The notes below the pieces were generated by a model. That model ran no database searches. It was not told the origin of the DNA and was given only the letters and a program-made list of their open reading frames with translations. From Chryseobacterium nepalense (GTDB lineage: Bacteria; Bacteroidota; Bacteroidia; Flavobacteriales; Weeksellaceae), in the NCBI RefSeq assembly GCF_023195755.1, contig NZ_CP096203.1, positions 3,038,001-3,102,000 of the forward strand: a DNA stretch of 64,000 bases. Direction: 5' to 3'. The translations under genes and the position numbers were made by a program. How positions within the stretch are numbered: the stretch's first letter is position 1; the number at the start of each line of letters is the position of its first letter. Positions 1 through 9,619 of the stretch are shown piece after piece.

Positions 1-1827
1 TTTCAGGAATTCGATCACGGCTTTTAACGTATTGGAAAGCTCCAGTGTTAAACCTTTGTCAGAAATTGTTTTAATATTCGTTTCCTCTCCTTTATAATTT
101 ACCTTCAGATTTCCTAATTTCTGGGAATAACTGAAAATGTCAAAATTCCCGCGGCAGAGAATGGTAATGTCTGAAAATCTGAAACCATTATCCAGACTTT
201 CCTGGATATCTTTCCGCATTCTTTCAGAAGTATCATTATAAAAATCTTCATTCGTAAGATTTTCAATTAAATTTACTTTTACACGACCTTCCATTGAAGA
301 TCTCGGAGTCTGTTCTGCGTCTGTCCCGAAAATATTCTTATGCTCTTCTTCTAAGATATCAGAATGAAAGCGATATAGATCATTATTGAAACGGACTATA
401 TTCTTAGCGCTCCGCCAGTTATCTTTCAGCACCAGAAGTTCGGCTTCCTTGGGAGTAATTTCTTTTTTGTTGATAATATCAAGCATCAGTTTGCTTTCTC
501 CGCCCCGGAAACGGTAAATACTCTGTTTCGGATCTCCAACCAAGGTAAACGAAGTATTTTCAGTAGAGATGGAATGGTCTCTCAGCGGAAGGAAATTCTG
601 CCATTGAAGCTCGGAGGTATCCTGAAATTCATCAAAAAAATAGTGCTGAAACTGGGATCCTACCTTTTCATAGATGAAAGCAGACGGCTCATTTTTAAGA
701 TTTTCGTTGATCAGAATATTGAATTTGCTTAATAGCACAAGATCATTTTCCTGTTCAATTTTTCTCAGCTCATCCTGAATATCTTTATTTACTTTCAGTG
801 GTAAAAGTGCGGAAAGGATTTTCTCTTTTTTCTGTGTTTCAATATAAAGAAGAATCAGCTGCATCCTGTTTTCAAGAAGCTGATCAAGAATTTCTAAAAT
901 ATCACCTTCCTTGTGTTTTGATTTTGAAGAAGCACCTTTACGGTAATTATTGACAACGGATTCCTCTGCAGTGGTAGGAAAAGGAAAACCCGTTCTTTTT
1001 TGCTGGTAAAAATCTAATACTTTAGTGAAAAATCCGCCGATTCCATTTTTGCCCTGCGCGAAATCTTCAATCTCAATACCTTTCGACCTGAATAATTCTA
1101 TCGATTTTGCGGCAAGATCACTCGCCTGTTTTTTGTTTAATACAATCTCTTTACGAAGCGTATTTTTAATATTTTCGTAATTCGTGCTGTCGAAGTCTTT
1201 ATTGTTTTTCAGATGTTCATAATGAATATCCTTTACAAATTCTTTCGCAGAATCATACAGGTTTTTATTTAAATTAATTCTTTCATTATTCTCAAGGCTG
1301 TAATCCACATAATCCATGAACGATTCGGAAATCACTTCATTTTCCCCGATCTGGTCAAGCATTTTATCCACGGCTTCAATAAGGAAGGGCTCGGCTTCAA
1401 TTTCAAGATTAAAATTTTTAGCCAGACCCAATTCATAAGAAAAGCTTCTTACAAGTCTGGAGTTGAAACGGTCTATAGTTCCGATATTCAGAGTAGAATA
1501 ATTATGAAGAACATAATCCAGCAGTTTTTTTGCACGGATATGAAGTTCATCAATGGTAATCTTAATGCCTTCAAGTTCAAATGCTTTCTGGATATTTTTC
1601 AGATCACTATTTTCCGCGAAATCATCCGACGAGAAATTTCCCAGCCAGCTCAGGATTCTTTCTTTCATTTCGTTGGCTGCCTTGTTGGTAAAAGTGAGTG
1701 CCAGAATATTCCTGATCGATTGCTGTTGATTAGGATACCGGAGACAGATCATCAAAAGCCGCTGCACCAGCGCATAGGTTTTCCCCGAGCCGGCTGAAGC
1801 ATTGATAACGGTATAAGAATTTTGCAT
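1..1827 (-). CDS. UvrD/AddA-like ATP-dependent helicase-exonuclease, N-terminal part (cut by left window edge)
   Basis: Reading the minus strand from an ATG at 1827 gives 609 codons without a stop, so the gene continues beyond base 1. The protein opens with a Walker A motif (ASAGSGKT, about residues 10-17), has a DEFQDT Walker B/helicase motif near residue 399 and a GDPKQSIYRFRGG motif near residue 430. These are superfamily 1 UvrD/RecB/AddA hallmarks. The length before motif II and the wording of the motifs fit the RecB/AddA branch of Bacteroidota, which acts with an AddB-like partner in double-strand break resection; the C-terminal nuclease domain would lie outside the window, so nuclease activity cannot be shown here. 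The start is chosen because the Walker A lies at the very N-terminus, as is usual in this family. Confidence 0.88.
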   Translation of the reverse strand, partial: MQNSYTVINASAGSGKTYALVQRLLMICLRYPNQQQSIRNILALTFTNKAANEMKERILSWLGNFSSDDFAENSDLKNIQKAFELEGIKITIDELHIRAKKLLDYVLHNYSTLNIGTIDRFNSRLVRSFSYELGLAKNFNLEIEAEPFLIEAVDKMLDQIGENEVISESFMDYVDYSLENNERINLNKNLYDSAKEFVKDIHYEHLKNNKDFDSTNYENIKNTLRKEIVLNKKQASDLAAKSIELFRSKGIEIEDFAQGKNGIGGFFTKVLDFYQQKRTGFPFPTTAEESVVNNYRKGASSKSKHKEGDILEILDQLLENRMQLILLYIETQKKEKILSALLPLKVNKDIQDELRKIEQENDLVLLSKFNILINENLKNEPSAFIYEKVGSQFQHYFFDEFQDTSELQWQNFLPLRDHSISTENTSFTLVGDPKQSIYRFRGGESKLMLDIINKKEITPKEAELLVLKDNWRSAKNIVRFNNDLYRFHSDILEEEHKNIFGTDAEQTPRSSMEGRVKVNLIENLTNEDFYNDTSERMRKDIQESLDNGFRFSDITILCRGNFDIFSYSQKLGNLKVNYKGEETNIKTISDKGLTLELSNTLKAVIEFLK

Positions 1828-1981
1828 TTCGATTGGAATTCAATGTGCAAGTTACTTAATTTTTAAGTGAAATTTTAACAAATTGAGCGGTTGATTTAAC
1901 AGTTTTAAAGCTATAAATCAAAAAGAAATGCTAAAACGCGTTAACTGTGGTTAAACTTCCCGAAATATTTAAAAATAATTA

Positions 1982-1989
1982 TAGTTTTG
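1982..1989 (+). promoter_or_regulatory. Candidate -7 box (TAnnTTTG type)
   Basis: TAGTTTTG matches the Bacteroidota -7 consensus TAnnTTTG and lies 19 bases before the GTG start at 2009. I do not see a clear TTTG -33 box about 19 bases upstream, so this rests on the -7 element alone. Confidence 0.4.
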
Positions 1990-2008
1990 CTCTAATAAAA
2001 AACTTTCC

Positions 2009-2746
2009 GTGAAAATTAAACTACTTTTTGTCTTATTTACCGTTCTTTTCATCAATATTCAGGCCCAGGATTATATTTTCGGGAAGGTGACTTCTGAAGA
2101 TAATAATGAAATTTCCGATGTTACGGTCATTAATATAAGGACTGACGAAAGAATTTCAACCAATCGCGACGGCCATTTTATGATATCCGGAAGAGCAGGA
2201 GATGAGCTTCGGTTTGTGAAAAACGGTTATGAAAGAGCCAACAGAAAAATCAATAAAGAAAACATCAGTGCACCTGTTAATGTTATGCTCATGAGATCGG
2301 CAACACTTATTGCAGAAGTAGAACTGAAAAAAGAAATTACAGGAGATCTTAAAATTGATTCCAAAAACCTTAACCCTCCAAAGAAAGTCCAGAAACTTAA
2401 GAGTGATCTTGCTGTCTACATGAAGCGAAAATCAGCACCTTCGGTTTTAGCACCGCGTGCGGGGGAATTTGTACAGCCGGTAACAAAAGGTGTATTTTCT
2501 CTGGGAAAAGTTAAAAACAAGTGGGATGATATGGATCTCCTGAATTACCTGCAGAATGCCCTTGGAACAGAGTTTTTTGAAGATCTTAAAATTGAAAAAG
2601 CACAGATACAGCATTTTATCCTTTATATACTGAGAACAGGTTTTGAAAGAAAAAATATCCTTAAATACGGCTATGTTACCGAAGCGGATCTGAACAGGTT
2701 TAAAAATGCTGTACTAAACAGAATCTCGGCCTATAAAACTCCCTAG
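2009..2746 (+). CDS. Secreted carboxypeptidase-like regulatory-domain protein (copy 1)
   Basis: A 245-residue protein with a GTG start followed by a clear signal peptide (MKIKLLFVLFTVLFINIQAQ). Right after it comes the pattern of a CarboxypepD_reg-like beta-sandwich (I-x-G-x-V-T-x-E-D...I-s-d-V-t-V-I-N, then D-G-x-F-x-I-S-x-x-x-G-D-E-L-R-F), about residues 22-95. The remaining 150 residues are mostly helical and unassigned. It is a paralogue of the next gene, with the same layout and a shared D-E-L-R-F-...-G-Y-E-R block. Such domains occur at the start of TonB receptors and in envelope proteins of Bacteroidota; here the domain stands without a barrel. Function unknown; periplasmic or outer-membrane location is inferred from the signal peptide. 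Confidence 0.75.
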   Translation: MKIKLLFVLFTVLFINIQAQDYIFGKVTSEDNNEISDVTVINIRTDERISTNRDGHFMISGRAGDELRFVKNGYERANRKINKENISAPVNVMLMRSATLIAEVELKKEITGDLKIDSKNLNPPKKVQKLKSDLAVYMKRKSAPSVLAPRAGEFVQPVTKGVFSLGKVKNKWDDMDLLNYLQNALGTEFFEDLKIEKAQIQHFILYILRTGFERKNILKYGYVTEADLNRFKNAVLNRISAYKTP

Positions 2747-2769
2747 GTTCATTATATATCTTAAAAGTA

Positions 2770-3546
2770 ATGAGAATCAAACTTTTAATTTTTGTAATAT
2801 TTCCTTTTCTCCATGTATTTTCACAAAAAACGATAGAAGGATCCATTACTGATGAAGACGGCGTTGCGCTTCCTGCTGTGATGGTCATGAATATCTCTTC
2901 AGAGAAAAGGACCTATACTGCCTTAGACGGAACTTTTTCAATCGAAGCAGCGCCTGAAGATGAATTACGGTTCATACGTTCCGGCTATGAAAGGTCTTCT
3001 ATACAGGCAAAATATCTTACAGAAAATAAAGCAACGATTAAACTGATAAGAATCGCTGAACAGATTGAAGAAGTAGAAATCGCCAACCTTACCGGCGATA
3101 TCAAAAAGGATTCCCGCGCGATGGCCAAAATCGATAAAGGAAAGTTGGTGGAAGATGCAGTAGGACTTACGCAACCTGTTGGGAAAATGAGGGAAACGCC
3201 GGCAGATATAAAACAGGTGTTACTTCCTATTTTGCTGGGAAATCTCAATATTCAGGGACTTTATGATGTTATTAGCGGAGATGCGAGGCGAATGAAAAGG
3301 CAGTATAAATATGATGACCTCCAGGAAGATATTGCATGGATTCGCGAAAGGGTGGAGGATGATTATTTCATCAAAGAAGGCATTCCCAAAGAAAGGATCT
3401 CCGAGTTTATTGAATTTTCATTTTTAGACAAACCACAGACAAGAGCTTTTGTAAGGGCTAAAAACCTCACAGGTGCTTTATCAAGAATGGAAGAATCTCT
3501 TCCGGTGTTCGTTGAAAGATTGAAGGAAAGTTCTGTCGGAAAATAA
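2770..3546 (+). CDS. Secreted carboxypeptidase-like regulatory-domain protein (copy 2)
   Basis: A 258-residue protein with a signal peptide (MRIKLLIFVIFPFLHVFSQ), then I-E-G-S-I-T-D-E-D-G-V-A-L-P-A-V, a CarboxypepD_reg-like start, and the D-E-L-R-F-I-R-S-G-Y-E-R block also seen in the upstream gene. The C-terminal half is charged and helical. It lies 23 bp downstream of copy 1 on the same strand, so the two are probably co-transcribed and arose by tandem duplication. The C-terminal parts have diverged far more than the N-terminal domains. Function unknown. Confidence 0.75.
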   Translation: MRIKLLIFVIFPFLHVFSQKTIEGSITDEDGVALPAVMVMNISSEKRTYTALDGTFSIEAAPEDELRFIRSGYERSSIQAKYLTENKATIKLIRIAEQIEEVEIANLTGDIKKDSRAMAKIDKGKLVEDAVGLTQPVGKMRETPADIKQVLLPILLGNLNIQGLYDVISGDARRMKRQYKYDDLQEDIAWIRERVEDDYFIKEGIPKERISEFIEFSFLDKPQTRAFVRAKNLTGALSRMEESLPVFVERLKESSVGK

Positions 3547-5606: not shown

Positions 5607-5645
5607 AATAATAAAGCTGCCTTCTTTTGAGGCAGCTTTATTTTA
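5607..5645 (-). terminator. Rho-independent terminator after the 5643 gene
   Basis: A perfect 9-bp stem (5613-5621 with 5631-5639, core AAAGCTGCC) with a 9-base loop lies directly beyond the stop codon at 5643. Read on the minus strand it is followed by an A/T-rich tract, so it probably ends the three-gene cluster that starts at 8965. Confidence 0.65.
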
Positions 5646-6656
5646 TTTTGAAATCTTAATTTTTTTTAAGTCTATATTTATACGTTTTAGACCACCATTC
5701 ATCTTTATTTTTATTAGATCTTCAACATAGGTTCCCATTAATGGGACAGCTTTGTCACCTATCAGTCTATAATAAGGAGCTTCGTATTTTTGAAATCTTT
5801 CCGGATAATCCTCATCTATAGAAGGTATTGTATTTATTCGAATGAAAGAATCAAATTCTATCAATTGGGCTTTTATTGTTGTATCTTTTTTATAATCAGC
5901 ATAATTGTCAAATTTAAAAGGATCGCCCGGACTTGCCCATTTGCCGTCTTTTGTTTTATATACGTCAAAGAACTGATATTTTTCCTGATATAGCTTTCCG
6001 CAATATTCACCTACAAATAACAGTACTTTATCATAATATTCAATCATGGGCCTACCAAGGTGGCTGTTTGATGTAAATTCTATAGTATCATTGGGATAGT
6101 CACCATAAACTTCATCGATAATTCTGTACTTATATTTCATGCCTCCGCCATCTAATGTAACTACATTGCAGTAATAAGGATCTTCTTCATATTTTTTGGA
6201 TATTTGTTCTCCTACGAAGATATAAAAATTAGAAGGTTGCTTTTGTTCACAGGGAATGTAAGTAACGCATGGCTCCGGTTCAAGGTAAACTTTTATTTTT
6301 TTCGTTATAATATCTGCAACTTTATATTTTTGAGTAAAATATTTATAACTATAAAAATATAAAGTATCGGTAGGCTTAGCTTTTATTTCATAATTACCTT
6401 TTTTATCCGCCTGGGTAACATATTTTTTGTTTTTACAAAGATTTTGGTAAATATCTCCATCTTCACTCCAACTTTTAGTGGCAGTTCTCATATCTCTATA
6501 CTTTTTTAAAGTATCATTAACCACAATCATGACAAAATTTCGGTTCTTGGTGGTATCTCTTGCAATACTTTTTACGGTAACTTTCTGAGATTTATAAAAA
6601 GAGACAAAGAAGATTAAAAATAGAATAATAGTTCTTTTCTGAATATTTAATTTCAT
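5643..6656 (-). CDS. Secreted protein of unknown function (third gene of JAMM cluster)
   Basis: A 337-residue protein with a signal peptide (MKLNIQKRTIILFLIFF...SQ). An upstream in-frame ATG exists at 6680, but the ATG at 6656 gives the cleaner signal peptide. The mature protein starts with a beta-rich segment reading like a carboxypeptidase-regulatory repeat (A-D-K-K-G-N-Y-E-I-K-A, D-T-L-Y-F-Y-S) and then has unassigned mixed sequence with several Cys (C-x4-C-x-Q). I do not recognise the family. It is the last of three same-strand genes for exported proteins and ends at a terminator. Confidence 0.6.
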   Translation of the reverse strand: MKLNIQKRTIILFLIFFVSFYKSQKVTVKSIARDTTKNRNFVMIVVNDTLKKYRDMRTATKSWSEDGDIYQNLCKNKKYVTQADKKGNYEIKAKPTDTLYFYSYKYFTQKYKVADIITKKIKVYLEPEPCVTYIPCEQKQPSNFYIFVGEQISKKYEEDPYYCNVVTLDGGGMKYKYRIIDEVYGDYPNDTIEFTSNSHLGRPMIEYYDKVLLFVGEYCGKLYQEKYQFFDVYKTKDGKWASPGDPFKFDNYADYKKDTTIKAQLIEFDSFIRINTIPSIDEDYPERFQKYEAPYYRLIGDKAVPLMGTYVEDLIKIKMNGGLKRINIDLKKIKISK

Positions 6657-6697
6657 AACTTTTATATAAAAACCGTCCAAAAACGGTTTACAATTAT

Positions 6698-7204
6698 TTA
6701 TTCAGAGTAATCCTCACTATCATATCCTTTAACTCCCGTAAACTCTATTTTCTCTATTTTCATATTAGAAAAAAATTGAGCTACATTGGGATCCCAAACC
6801 GCATGATACTGTTCCATTAAACTTTGTACCTGAGGAAATGGAATTTCATTTTCAAAGGTTATTATTACTAATGGATATTGAAAAGAATTCTTAGATGAAA
6901 CTCTAAGCATAGCCATATCAACAAAAAATAACTTTAGAACATAATATTTATTGCTGGACGATATTTTCGTATCATATATCCAACCGTTAGGCTGAACATT
7001 TTTATTAAGCATCTCATTTTGTAAGCTTGAAAAGTTTTGGTTGTAAAACTGTATTTTATTTGGGATAATACCGTTTAATTTTGGAACGACATCATTATAA
7101 TGGTTAATATAGTCTGTTGCTGTTTGAGCTTTGCAATTAAGCAGAAATAATATGTTCGTAACAAATGTTACCTTTAAAATGATCTTTATTATTGTTTTTT
7201 TCAT
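6698..7204 (-). CDS. Predicted lipoprotein of unknown function (second gene of JAMM cluster)
   Basis: A 168-residue protein whose N-terminus (MKK... then F-L-L-N-C-K) looks like a lipoprotein signal with the Cys near residue 24. The mature part is a small alpha/beta domain with no motif that I recognise; the C-terminus is acidic (D-S-E-D-Y-S-E). It starts 15 bp after the stop of the JAMM lipoprotein gene and is followed 41 bp later by another secreted protein. The size and position would suit a partner or inhibitor of the upstream peptidase, which is inference only. Confidence 0.6.
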   Translation of the reverse strand: MKKTIIKIILKVTFVTNILFLLNCKAQTATDYINHYNDVVPKLNGIIPNKIQFYNQNFSSLQNEMLNKNVQPNGWIYDTKISSSNKYYVLKLFFVDMAMLRVSSKNSFQYPLVIITFENEIPFPQVQSLMEQYHAVWDPNVAQFFSNMKIEKIEFTGVKGYDSEDYSE

Positions 7205-7219
7205 AGTGCTTATTATTTA

Positions 7220-8965
7220 TTATGGACATTTAGAGATTATTAATTTTTCATCTATTACACCATTAGCAAGAGTTATTTCGTTTAGAGAAATTTGTAATTT
7301 CTTTAAATTACCATTGCTATCTGCTTTCGCTAAACTTATTCCTGAATTAAAATGATCAAGAATGTATGCCATTGCTATAGCACGCTTATTATAATATTCT
7401 CCTGATACTATTGAATTAGCATAGTTATATGCGAAAATATATTTCACCTTTTCAAATTCTTTTCCAAGTTTAGTTTTCTCTTTTATGCTATGCGTTAAGG
7501 TGTCGTAGTTTTCACTTCTTGGAAAATCTGTCAAAAACTGGGCTGCAAGTGCAGGATCCGTAACTATAAGTGCATAGGTTTCATTATTTCCATTACTTAC
7601 TCCATATACCAAATTGAATTTAATAGTATTATTGCTGTTTATCATCCTTTCAAGCAAAGAAAACAAATCTCCGCCAGACGGACTTCCAGGCGTACCGGCA
7701 TGCGAGTGTGCAGAACCTATAGCTGTAGAGTTTTGCAGTTGATTAAATGGTGGAGATACCGAAGAAACATTTCCGGAAGCAGGATTGGTTGCTTCATACT
7801 CTCCTGAAGCTGTGTTTTGGCCTATAGCAACACCCCATTCTATATTATCATTTGCTTTATTCTCCAAAACCTGCTTTATTTTTTGCTGCCCTACAGGGCT
7901 TTTAAGAACCTGATTAACTTTATCAATAACCGGTTTTGTTTTTTTACAAGGGCTGTCTGCTGACAGATATTGATTATAAAACTCTTCCCACGTAGCATTA
8001 GGATGGTCCATAAAATATTGTACCGCTTCATTATGAAAATTCAAATTTTCTGTATTGTTGGCAATAGAATAATTGTTGAGGTAGCTCTCAATGATATTCT
8101 GGTAAATATCTACATGCTCATTTGCCCATTGTCGGTACAACGCTCCGGGAAGCTGTTCCCAAAAAAGATAAGCTCTCAATGCTCTTACATAGCCTGCATC
8201 GGTAGAAGGCGGTACATTAGGATCAAAAACATATCCGCTCGGGTCGGTAAGATATGCAGCAGAGCCACCCTCTGTAATAGGGTCTACAGGAGGAGGTGGA
8301 TTGGAAGGGTTTCCATTACTTGGTCCGCCAAAACCACCGGAGTTATCTCCACCTCCACTTCCTACACAAACAGTTAAGGTTTCCAGACAGCTCTCACATT
8401 TGTCGCATGCATCCCAGCTGCAACCGTTTTTACAATGCCATACACTCACGCTGTAAGAAGCCAGGCAGTCTTCATAACTTGAAGTTTTGGCAACCGCATT
8501 TTTGTGGGTGTGTTTCTGGGCTATGGAAGCCGCTTCCGAATCGTAATACACATAGGGAGTGTTCCCTATTATCCTTATAATAGAATAATGAAGCGTGCCA
8601 TCATTTCTCTTGCGGTATACCATATTATAGACATCCTGGGGATTGCCGAACAGAGAATAGATTCTAAAGGCATAGGTAGAAATATCCCCATTGGCTTTAA
8701 TACGGTTGATCGTTTCTGTATCAATGAGGAATCCCGAAAGTGGGTCGTCATGCTGACTGTTTTTTTGTGCGGTGTTTAGTGGAGAAATTACCTCTCCAAC
8801 TTTTTGAATCTGTGTTTCTTTTTGGAAAACAGAAAAGGAAATAATATCCTGATTTCTGTTTGCAGAGATTTCATTTAAAATATCCTGCTCATTTCTACAG
8901 GAAACAAGAGTGAGGAACACCGTTAATAAAAACAGCCATGAAATTTTCTTTCTCATCATTTGCAT
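7220..8965 (-). CDS. Lipoprotein with a JAMM/MPN+ metalloprotease domain
   Basis: A 581-residue protein. The N-terminus (M-R-K-K-I-S-W-L-F-L-L-T-V-F... V-S-C-R) is a lipoprotein signal; ATG codons at 8965 and 8956 are both possible. Next come an unassigned domain, a Cys-rich patch (W-H-C-K-N-G-C-S-W-D-A-C-D-K-C-E-S-C near residues 175-190), a Gly/Pro-rich linker (about 200-225) and a helical region. Residues 420-433 read H-S-H-x7-S-x2-D, exactly the JAMM zinc motif (H420, H422, S430, D433), with a suitable upstream glutamate at E376 in I-E-W-G-V-A-I-G. JAMM proteins cleave isopeptide or peptide bonds; the substrate of an exported, lipid-anchored one is unknown. The two downstream genes are also for exported proteins and are 15 and 41 bp apart, so a single operon is likely. 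Confidence 0.7.
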   Translation of the reverse strand: MQMMRKKISWLFLLTVFLTLVSCRNEQDILNEISANRNQDIISFSVFQKETQIQKVGEVISPLNTAQKNSQHDDPLSGFLIDTETINRIKANGDISTYAFRIYSLFGNPQDVYNMVYRKRNDGTLHYSIIRIIGNTPYVYYDSEAASIAQKHTHKNAVAKTSSYEDCLASYSVSVWHCKNGCSWDACDKCESCLETLTVCVGSGGGDNSGGFGGPSNGNPSNPPPPVDPITEGGSAAYLTDPSGYVFDPNVPPSTDAGYVRALRAYLFWEQLPGALYRQWANEHVDIYQNIIESYLNNYSIANNTENLNFHNEAVQYFMDHPNATWEEFYNQYLSADSPCKKTKPVIDKVNQVLKSPVGQQKIKQVLENKANDNIEWGVAIGQNTASGEYEATNPASGNVSSVSPPFNQLQNSTAIGSAHSHAGTPGSPSGGDLFSLLERMINSNNTIKFNLVYGVSNGNNETYALIVTDPALAAQFLTDFPRSENYDTLTHSIKEKTKLGKEFEKVKYIFAYNYANSIVSGEYYNKRAIAMAYILDHFNSGISLAKADSNGNLKKLQISLNEITLANGVIDEKLIISKCP

Positions 8966-9171
8966 TTGTTGTGTGTTAAATTAATTCTTACCTATAGATG
9001 CATGTTTTATCCGTAAGGTTGGAAAGAGATAAAAACCAATCTATAGTTATGCGGCAAATCTAAAGAAAATATTTCACATGCATCTGAACTAAAGTTGTAA
9101 AAACGCCAACAAAAGTTGTATTTTTTGAATATAAAAAATACGATTATGAATTTTGAAAAATTTTGATAGTA
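8966..9171. other. Intergenic region upstream of the JAMM cluster, no gene seen
   Basis: This stretch is A/T-rich and presumably carries the promoter for the minus-strand JAMM operon. I see no convincing open frame, RNA gene or strong hairpin before the inverted-repeat element that begins at about 9172. Confidence 0.4.
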
Positions 9172-9293: not shown

Positions 9294-9416
9294 AATAAAT
9301 CAAAATGCACAACGGGTTATAAAAAATAGTAAATTAGCTGAAAAATTATTTGAGCTGAAAGACCAGCTTGCTTTCTGGAAAACCCAGGCTGAAAGCCGCA
9401 AGTAATTTCCTGTTTT

Positions 9417-9550
9417 CCCGAAAAGCTGTTGCACCCCTGTAATGACTTTTCGGGAACACCCGAAAGTTTGTCGCACCCTCGCAACGGCTTTTCGGGAAAC
9501 TCCGAAAGCTTCCTGCAGCCTGCAGGAGGTTTTCGGGAACGTCCGAAGGG
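9417..9550. repeat. Array of three 42-bp units, each a hairpin (plus a partial fourth)
   Basis: Units begin at about 9417, 9459 and 9501 with a partial copy at 9542, spacing 42, 42 and 41 bp. Each starts with (C)CCGAAAG and ends with its complement CTTTTCGGG, enclosing a variable middle; the third has an extra nested palindrome CCTGCAGCCTGCAGG. The minus strand reads through as a 14-residue repeat with a conserved G-C pair (for example P-E-K-P-L-R-G-C-D-K-L-S), because 42 is a multiple of three, but there is no credible gene start there. It lies directly upstream of the DUF6261 gene. Confidence 0.65.
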
Positions 9551-9619
9551 ATTTTTATACCAGAGCCTGCCGGAATAAAATAATCGCATCATACGGTTTA
9601 ATAATAAAATAATACACAA

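Follow-up and report, generated by a model that had tools for sequence, protein, structure and literature searches.

In a 64,000-nt stretch of Chryseobacterium nepalense DNA (NZ_CP096203.1, assembly GCF_023195755.1, 3,038,001-3,102,000; the window, whose positions are used for coordinates), the minus-strand gene P0001 (7220..8965, an open reading frame (ORF) of 581 residues) and the next gene, P0002 (6698..7204, minus strand, 168 residues), probably constitute a toxin-immunity pair. P0001 would belong to a class of polymorphic toxins that are lipoproteins and occur in Chryseobacterium-type Bacteroidota, and its C-terminal tip would be a zinc hydrolase acting on the envelope. A sequence-only reading of the same DNA had recognized an exported lipoprotein with a JAMM-type zinc site in a cluster of three secreted-protein genes, and had proposed either a processing or a conflict system. 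The conflict system is strongly supported by the swapping of the payload and by a downstream gene which tracks it.

When the family genomes were searched, the first ~250-340 and the last ~240 residues of P0001 matched different proteins. At the C-terminus, carrier relatives have an AHH nuclease (PF14412, E 3e-7), a Tae4 amidase (PF14113, E 1e-15), a JAMM-like domain of a second type, an HExxH protein or unknown domains, and relatives of the JAMM domain are placed on several dissimilar lipoprotein carriers. The orthologous loci of C. cheonjiense and C. takakiae have the upstream region in common (78-79% DNA identity) and are about 91% identical in DNA to the window up to residue ~340, after which the payload diverges. 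In C. cheonjiense the tip is a JAMM domain 45% identical to that of P0001, accompanied by three tandem P0002 homologues, and a stop codon before the payload interrupts the gene; in C. takakiae the tip is of the second JAMM-like type (~20% identity), accompanied by DUF6705 immunity. At a third locus, in C. takakiae, an 86% identical carrier is followed by a Tae4-like tip whose reading frame is broken. The GC contents of the payload (0.344) and the immunity gene (0.286) are both below that of the carrier (0.412). At the level of sequence, these comparisons establish that P0001 consists of a constant lipoprotein carrier (residues 1-340) and an exchangeable C-terminal payload (341-581), the constant N-terminus and variable C-terminus of a polymorphic toxin. 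In one carrier relative (L159, ORF 1501-3336) the C-terminal region contains HExxH, is zincin-like and is apparently a further type of payload.

The JAMM-like payload domain (residues 340-581; 7223..7948, minus strand) lies between the conserved C340 and C580. Across 65 homologous domains, C340 and E376 were found in all, H420, S430, D433 and C580 in 64, and H422 in 63; the second His of HxH is lost at locus L082. In two alignments of relatives, most of them 15-45% identical to the window protein, the only residues invariant in both are the two cysteines and the E, H, H, S and D. Because these residues are near-invariant in 65 domains of such low identity, the signature is not due to chance. 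Its exact form, HxHx7SxxD, occurs once, in P0001, among the 23,839 residues of window ORFs of at least 100 residues. The HxH-to-S spacing is 6 to 9 in nearly all JAMM domains, a variation expected of a real loop. The exported lipoprotein with a JAMM-type site is thus borne out by conservation: E, HxH and SxxD, by which JAMM/MPN+ enzymes are recognized, are each kept in 63-65 of the 65 homologues, zinc ligands included. E376 (7838..7840, minus strand) is the predicted catalytic Glu, and motif together with conservation gives the predicted zinc site H420-S-H422-x7-S430-x2-D433 (7667..7708, minus strand). In 54 of the 65 copies the domain has exactly two cysteines, the bracketing pair, which suggests that C340 and C580 may form a disulfide.

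The JAMM domain ends each of the 65 proteins. Polymorphic toxins often include processing peptidases (PMC3482391), and a processing system was one suggestion of the sequence-only reading; the JAMM domain would then cut the carrier to free a toxin. However, an always terminal domain leaves nothing beyond it to release; moreover, it fills the slot held elsewhere by Tae4 or AHH, and the immunity gene comes after it. A processing role is therefore rejected as very improbable.

The adjacent downstream gene co-varies with the payload, as the immunity gene of a polymorphic toxin does. In nearly all copies it starts within -32 to +28 bp of the toxin gene. Among 47 non-redundant loci, the similarity of the downstream proteins followed that of the JAMM domains (Mantel/Spearman rho 0.72, permutation p 0.001), versus a rho of 0.12 with that of the carriers. 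Near-identical carriers with different payloads are followed by unrelated downstream genes, and the converse also holds. The downstream proteins include the P0002 type (n=39) and DUF6705 (PF20448, n=5), the latter accompanying JAMM domains of the second type. Of the P0002-type genes that profile searches recovered, most adjoin JAMM genes, often in tandem, and in the C. nepalense genome itself all four DUF6705 genes (loci L104, L105 and L106, at C1:1948993-1950067, 2448547 and 2886081) stand directly after its three other JAMM genes. As judged by these similarities, the P0002-family gene is inherited together with the payload. Since the downstream gene tracks the JAMM domain and not the carrier, and since payload and immunity switch together between orthologs, P0002 is predicted to be the immunity protein of P0001. 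DUF6705, of which no mention was found in the literature searched, is likewise a predicted immunity family.

JAMM enzymes are familiar as eukaryotic deubiquitinases, and P0001 might on that ground be aimed at eukaryotic hosts. By the reasoning of Zhang et al. (PMC3482391), the existence of dedicated immunity genes points instead to a target in bacteria, and the same carriers bear the anti-cell-wall Tae4, so that a host effector seems extremely improbable.

Tae4 acts on the cell wall. JAMM and Tae4 tips are accompanied by exported downstream proteins, whereas the AHH nuclease tip is accompanied by a DUF1963 protein without a signal peptide, a contrast made up of one AHH case and two or three Tae4 cases. 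For the JAMM tips, the downstream protein was exported in 53 of 55 cases according to a heuristic under which 22 of the 58 window genes are exported. The lipid anchors of the two partners also differ. The anchors of the toxins resemble C-R-[NT]-[DE], and 53 of 54 have an acidic residue somewhere from +3 to +6, while the Cys-bearing immunity proteins carry C-K-[AS]-Q or similar, with no acidic residue at these positions in 31 of 32; not every Cys in these counts is certain to be the lipidated one. In Bacteroidetes lipoproteins, acidic residues preceded by a positive or polar one direct the protein to the cell surface (lipoprotein export signal, LES; PMC5080379). By this rule the toxin probably faces outward and the antidote inward, which we take as a lead. 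In P0001 the signal peptide with lipobox V-S-C23, read from the sequence (8897..8965, minus strand), places the predicted lipid anchor C23 before R-N-E-Q-D, an LES-like arrangement with acidic residues at +4 and +6; the lipobox-like sequence of P0002, an exported and lipoprotein-like protein assigned as immunity by synteny and co-variation, is LLNC. There are thus good hints that the tip works outside the cytoplasm.

Alternatively, the JAMM tip may be a nuclease that enters the cytoplasm and is stopped by the exported immunity protein during entry. Zhang et al. argued that toxin JABs, which have no tunnel for a ubiquitin tail, could be nucleases (PMC3482391), and Tox-JAB-2 stands among the characterised effectors in a nuclease-effector paper (PMC9635880). 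Against this, the JAMM loci almost uniformly have exported immunity, whereas the AHH nuclease borne by the same carrier has a cytoplasmic one; the JAMM domain is framed by a conserved pair of cysteines; and in Bacteroidota the Toxin-JAB1 loci found have lipoprotein neighbours and most DUF4329 loci exported ones. A nuclease entering the cytoplasm is therefore rather unlikely, and an extracytoplasmic hydrolase is the more likely predicted activity here.

Several observations weigh against a toxin-immunity pair with an envelope-acting JAMM tip. Firstly, no library model matched the payload domain above cut-off: DUF4329 (PF14220) reached E 9e-4 and 19.6 bits against a gathering threshold of 28.6, with weak matches in 6 of 16 family members, and Prok-JAB reached E 0.02 and 15.2 bits against a cut-off of 25, with weak matches in 3 of 16. 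Secondly, the AlphaFold2 model of the payload, built from 2 sequences, had a mean predicted local distance difference test (pLDDT) score of 54, too poor for an MPN fold to be judged, and Foldseek with this low-confidence model gave no significant fold match. Thirdly, the background set of the LES comparison was impure. In addition, Salmonella Rhs effectors with DUF4329 have immunity genes without signal peptides (PMC10469887), so that a JAB tip can act in the cytoplasm elsewhere. Finally, a conserved subgroup of ~422-residue JAMM lipoproteins, in nine genomes (L052, L056, L058-L063 and L069), has no exported downstream gene; at the one locus read, the neighbouring gene is on the opposite strand. 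It suggests that the JAMM domain may not always need an antidote, and the subgroup is possibly domesticated or unrelated to conflict.

That this subgroup is kept without an exported partner, and that Bacteroidota display many lipoprotein hydrolases, would suit a surface peptidase that serves feeding or the maturation of proteins and has P0002 as regulator or chaperone. Such a non-weapon role leaves unaccounted for the swapping with Tae4 and AHH toxin domains, the tandem immunity copies and the orphan payload stubs, as well as the patchy distribution (91 of 321 family genomes), and we consider it improbable. JAMM-domain relatives are also found beyond the genus and the family, though in few genomes of the phylum as a whole (7 of 296). 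In one genome (G080:C1:2691309-2692084), two orphan C-terminal JAMM stubs alternate with P0002-type genes and look like what is left of cassettes that were displaced.

Toxin-JAB1 (PF15659) gave no profile match to the payload, and a formal link to it was rejected because the profile-profile comparison was not significant (hhalign probability 5%). No JAMM enzyme was matched significantly in profile searches of the PDB. For P0002, no Pfam model scored above its cut-off and no solved structure had a similar fold; its PADLOC match to AbiEi (E 8e-4) was taken as chance because P0002 is exported. An origin as a phage or plasmid gene was rejected, with no phage or plasmid match, one weak PHROGs hit and no relative on a viral contig; the search of genome contigs yielded only three loci. 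In a distant Bacteroidota genome, locus L178 (2770-3336, minus strand) places a JAMM domain near RHS-type fragments with DUF4329, followed by an exported protein. A bridge to DUF4329 through this locus failed, since the family-like ORF (41.5 bits), itself without a meaningful Pfam match, differs from the DUF4329 ORF.

The view that JAMM enzymes are normally cytoplasmic, taken in the sequence-only reading, holds as a general rule, yet the prediction of secreted JAB toxins dates from 2012: Tox-JAB-1 in RHS proteins with the lipoprotein immunity Imm65, and Tox-JAB-2, corresponding to DUF4329, with nuclease activity favoured for the Tox-JAB toxins (Zhang et al. 2012, PMC3482391). P0001 resembles both in having a C-terminal payload with an E...HxH...S signature beside an immunity gene; P0002 is lipoprotein-like and Imm65 a lipoprotein, a likeness of kind and not a claim of homology. 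P0001 differs in its lipoprotein carrier in place of RHS repeats, in its immunity families and in its extra Cys bracket, and the NTF2-type immunity of Tox-JAB-2 was not matched by P0002. By the tests made, the P0001 family cannot be filed under either Tox-JAB-1 or Tox-JAB-2.

In layout only, and not as a claim of membership, the locus is similar to SitA/SitI of myxobacteria (PMC8546572), with a lipoprotein escort domain, a swappable tip and an adjacent immunity gene; however, the SitA tips reported are nucleases whose site of action is the cytoplasm, and SitA is delivered by TraA outer-membrane exchange. TANFOR polymorphic toxins of Bacteroidetes share a constant N-terminus, tips such as AHH and downstream immunity, but they are large TANFOR/Fn3 proteins proposed as substrates of the type IX secretion system, and the TANFOR paper mentions no lipoprotein or JAB. 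The Amoebophilus effectors APD1/APD2, also from Bacteroidota, have a lipobox, a constant N-terminus and polymorphic C-termini, yet their presumed target is the amoeba host, and they are deployed in parallel. Tae4/Tai4 is related in that relatives of the P0001 carrier bear a Tae4 tip with an exported neighbour; Tae4 differs in fold and chemistry and is normally delivered by the type VI secretion system (T6SS). No match to the VipB/TssC sheath was found in the complete C. nepalense genome, by a search whose sensitivity for Bacteroidota T6SS is not established. Taken together, the toxin class has been known since 2012 as Tox-JAB, while the carrier, the immunity family and the link to DUF6705 look new.

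The third gene of the supposed cluster, P0003 (5643..6656, minus strand; start at ATG 6656 likelier than at TTG 6680), lies outside this unit. P0001, P0002 and P0003 run in the same direction, and P0002 and P0003 each have a signal peptide. P0003 is an exported, CarboxypepD_reg-like protein, with weak matches to that profile and to a BamP model, and a weak terminator-like hairpin precedes it. A conserved three-gene cluster was rejected in favour of the two-gene pair, as P0003 is present in only 2 of 149 family genomes besides its own, with no JAMM neighbour seen there.

Within P0001, the escort region common to toxins with other payloads covers residues 23-340 (7946..8899). It includes a Cys-rich patch with 7 Cys (residues 167-200; 8366..8467) and a Gly/Pro-rich linker (201-235; 8261..8365), both read from the sequence and, as the rest, on the minus strand; gene, lipobox, patch, linker and the five signature residues are all found as the sequence-only reading had described them. 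At window 8889-9069, a stretch of 181 bp that takes in the leader and some 26 initial codons has 95% identity to a paralogue in the same genome (C1:1947567), although the proteins differ beyond, so that a recent exchange of the 5' end is probable. Upstream of the toxin gene, window 9320-9560 holds GC-rich short repeats, partial copies of which lie beside several other toxin loci.

How might such a pair function? P0001 would be lipid-anchored, flipped to the cell surface by its LES-type signal and passed to a neighbouring cell on contact. The tip, stabilised by a C340-C580 disulfide, would hydrolyse a target outside the rival's cytoplasm, most likely a peptide or isopeptide bond of peptidoglycan or of a protein in the envelope. 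P0002, exported without a surface signal, would sit in the periplasm and block the toxin of siblings. More tentatively, and with less confidence than we place in the pair itself, these loci could represent a new class of surface-sorted lipoprotein weapons, in which the anchor residues direct the toxin to one face of the outer membrane and the antidote to the other, and a periplasmic JAMM domain is the main payload, possibly acting on peptidoglycan crosslinks or another isopeptide or peptide bond of the envelope. No report of a periplasmic envelope-cutting role for JAMM enzymes was found in the literature searched.

Whether Tox-JAB toxins act as nucleases or peptidases has been unsettled since their prediction in 2012. 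One carrier bearing JAMM, Tae4 or nuclease tips is a natural experiment, in which the location of the immunity protein tells where the tip works. The loci also provide a predicted function, immunity, for DUF6705 and for the unnamed P0002 family, and they suggest that Bacteroidota place a toxin and its antidote on opposite sides of the outer membrane.

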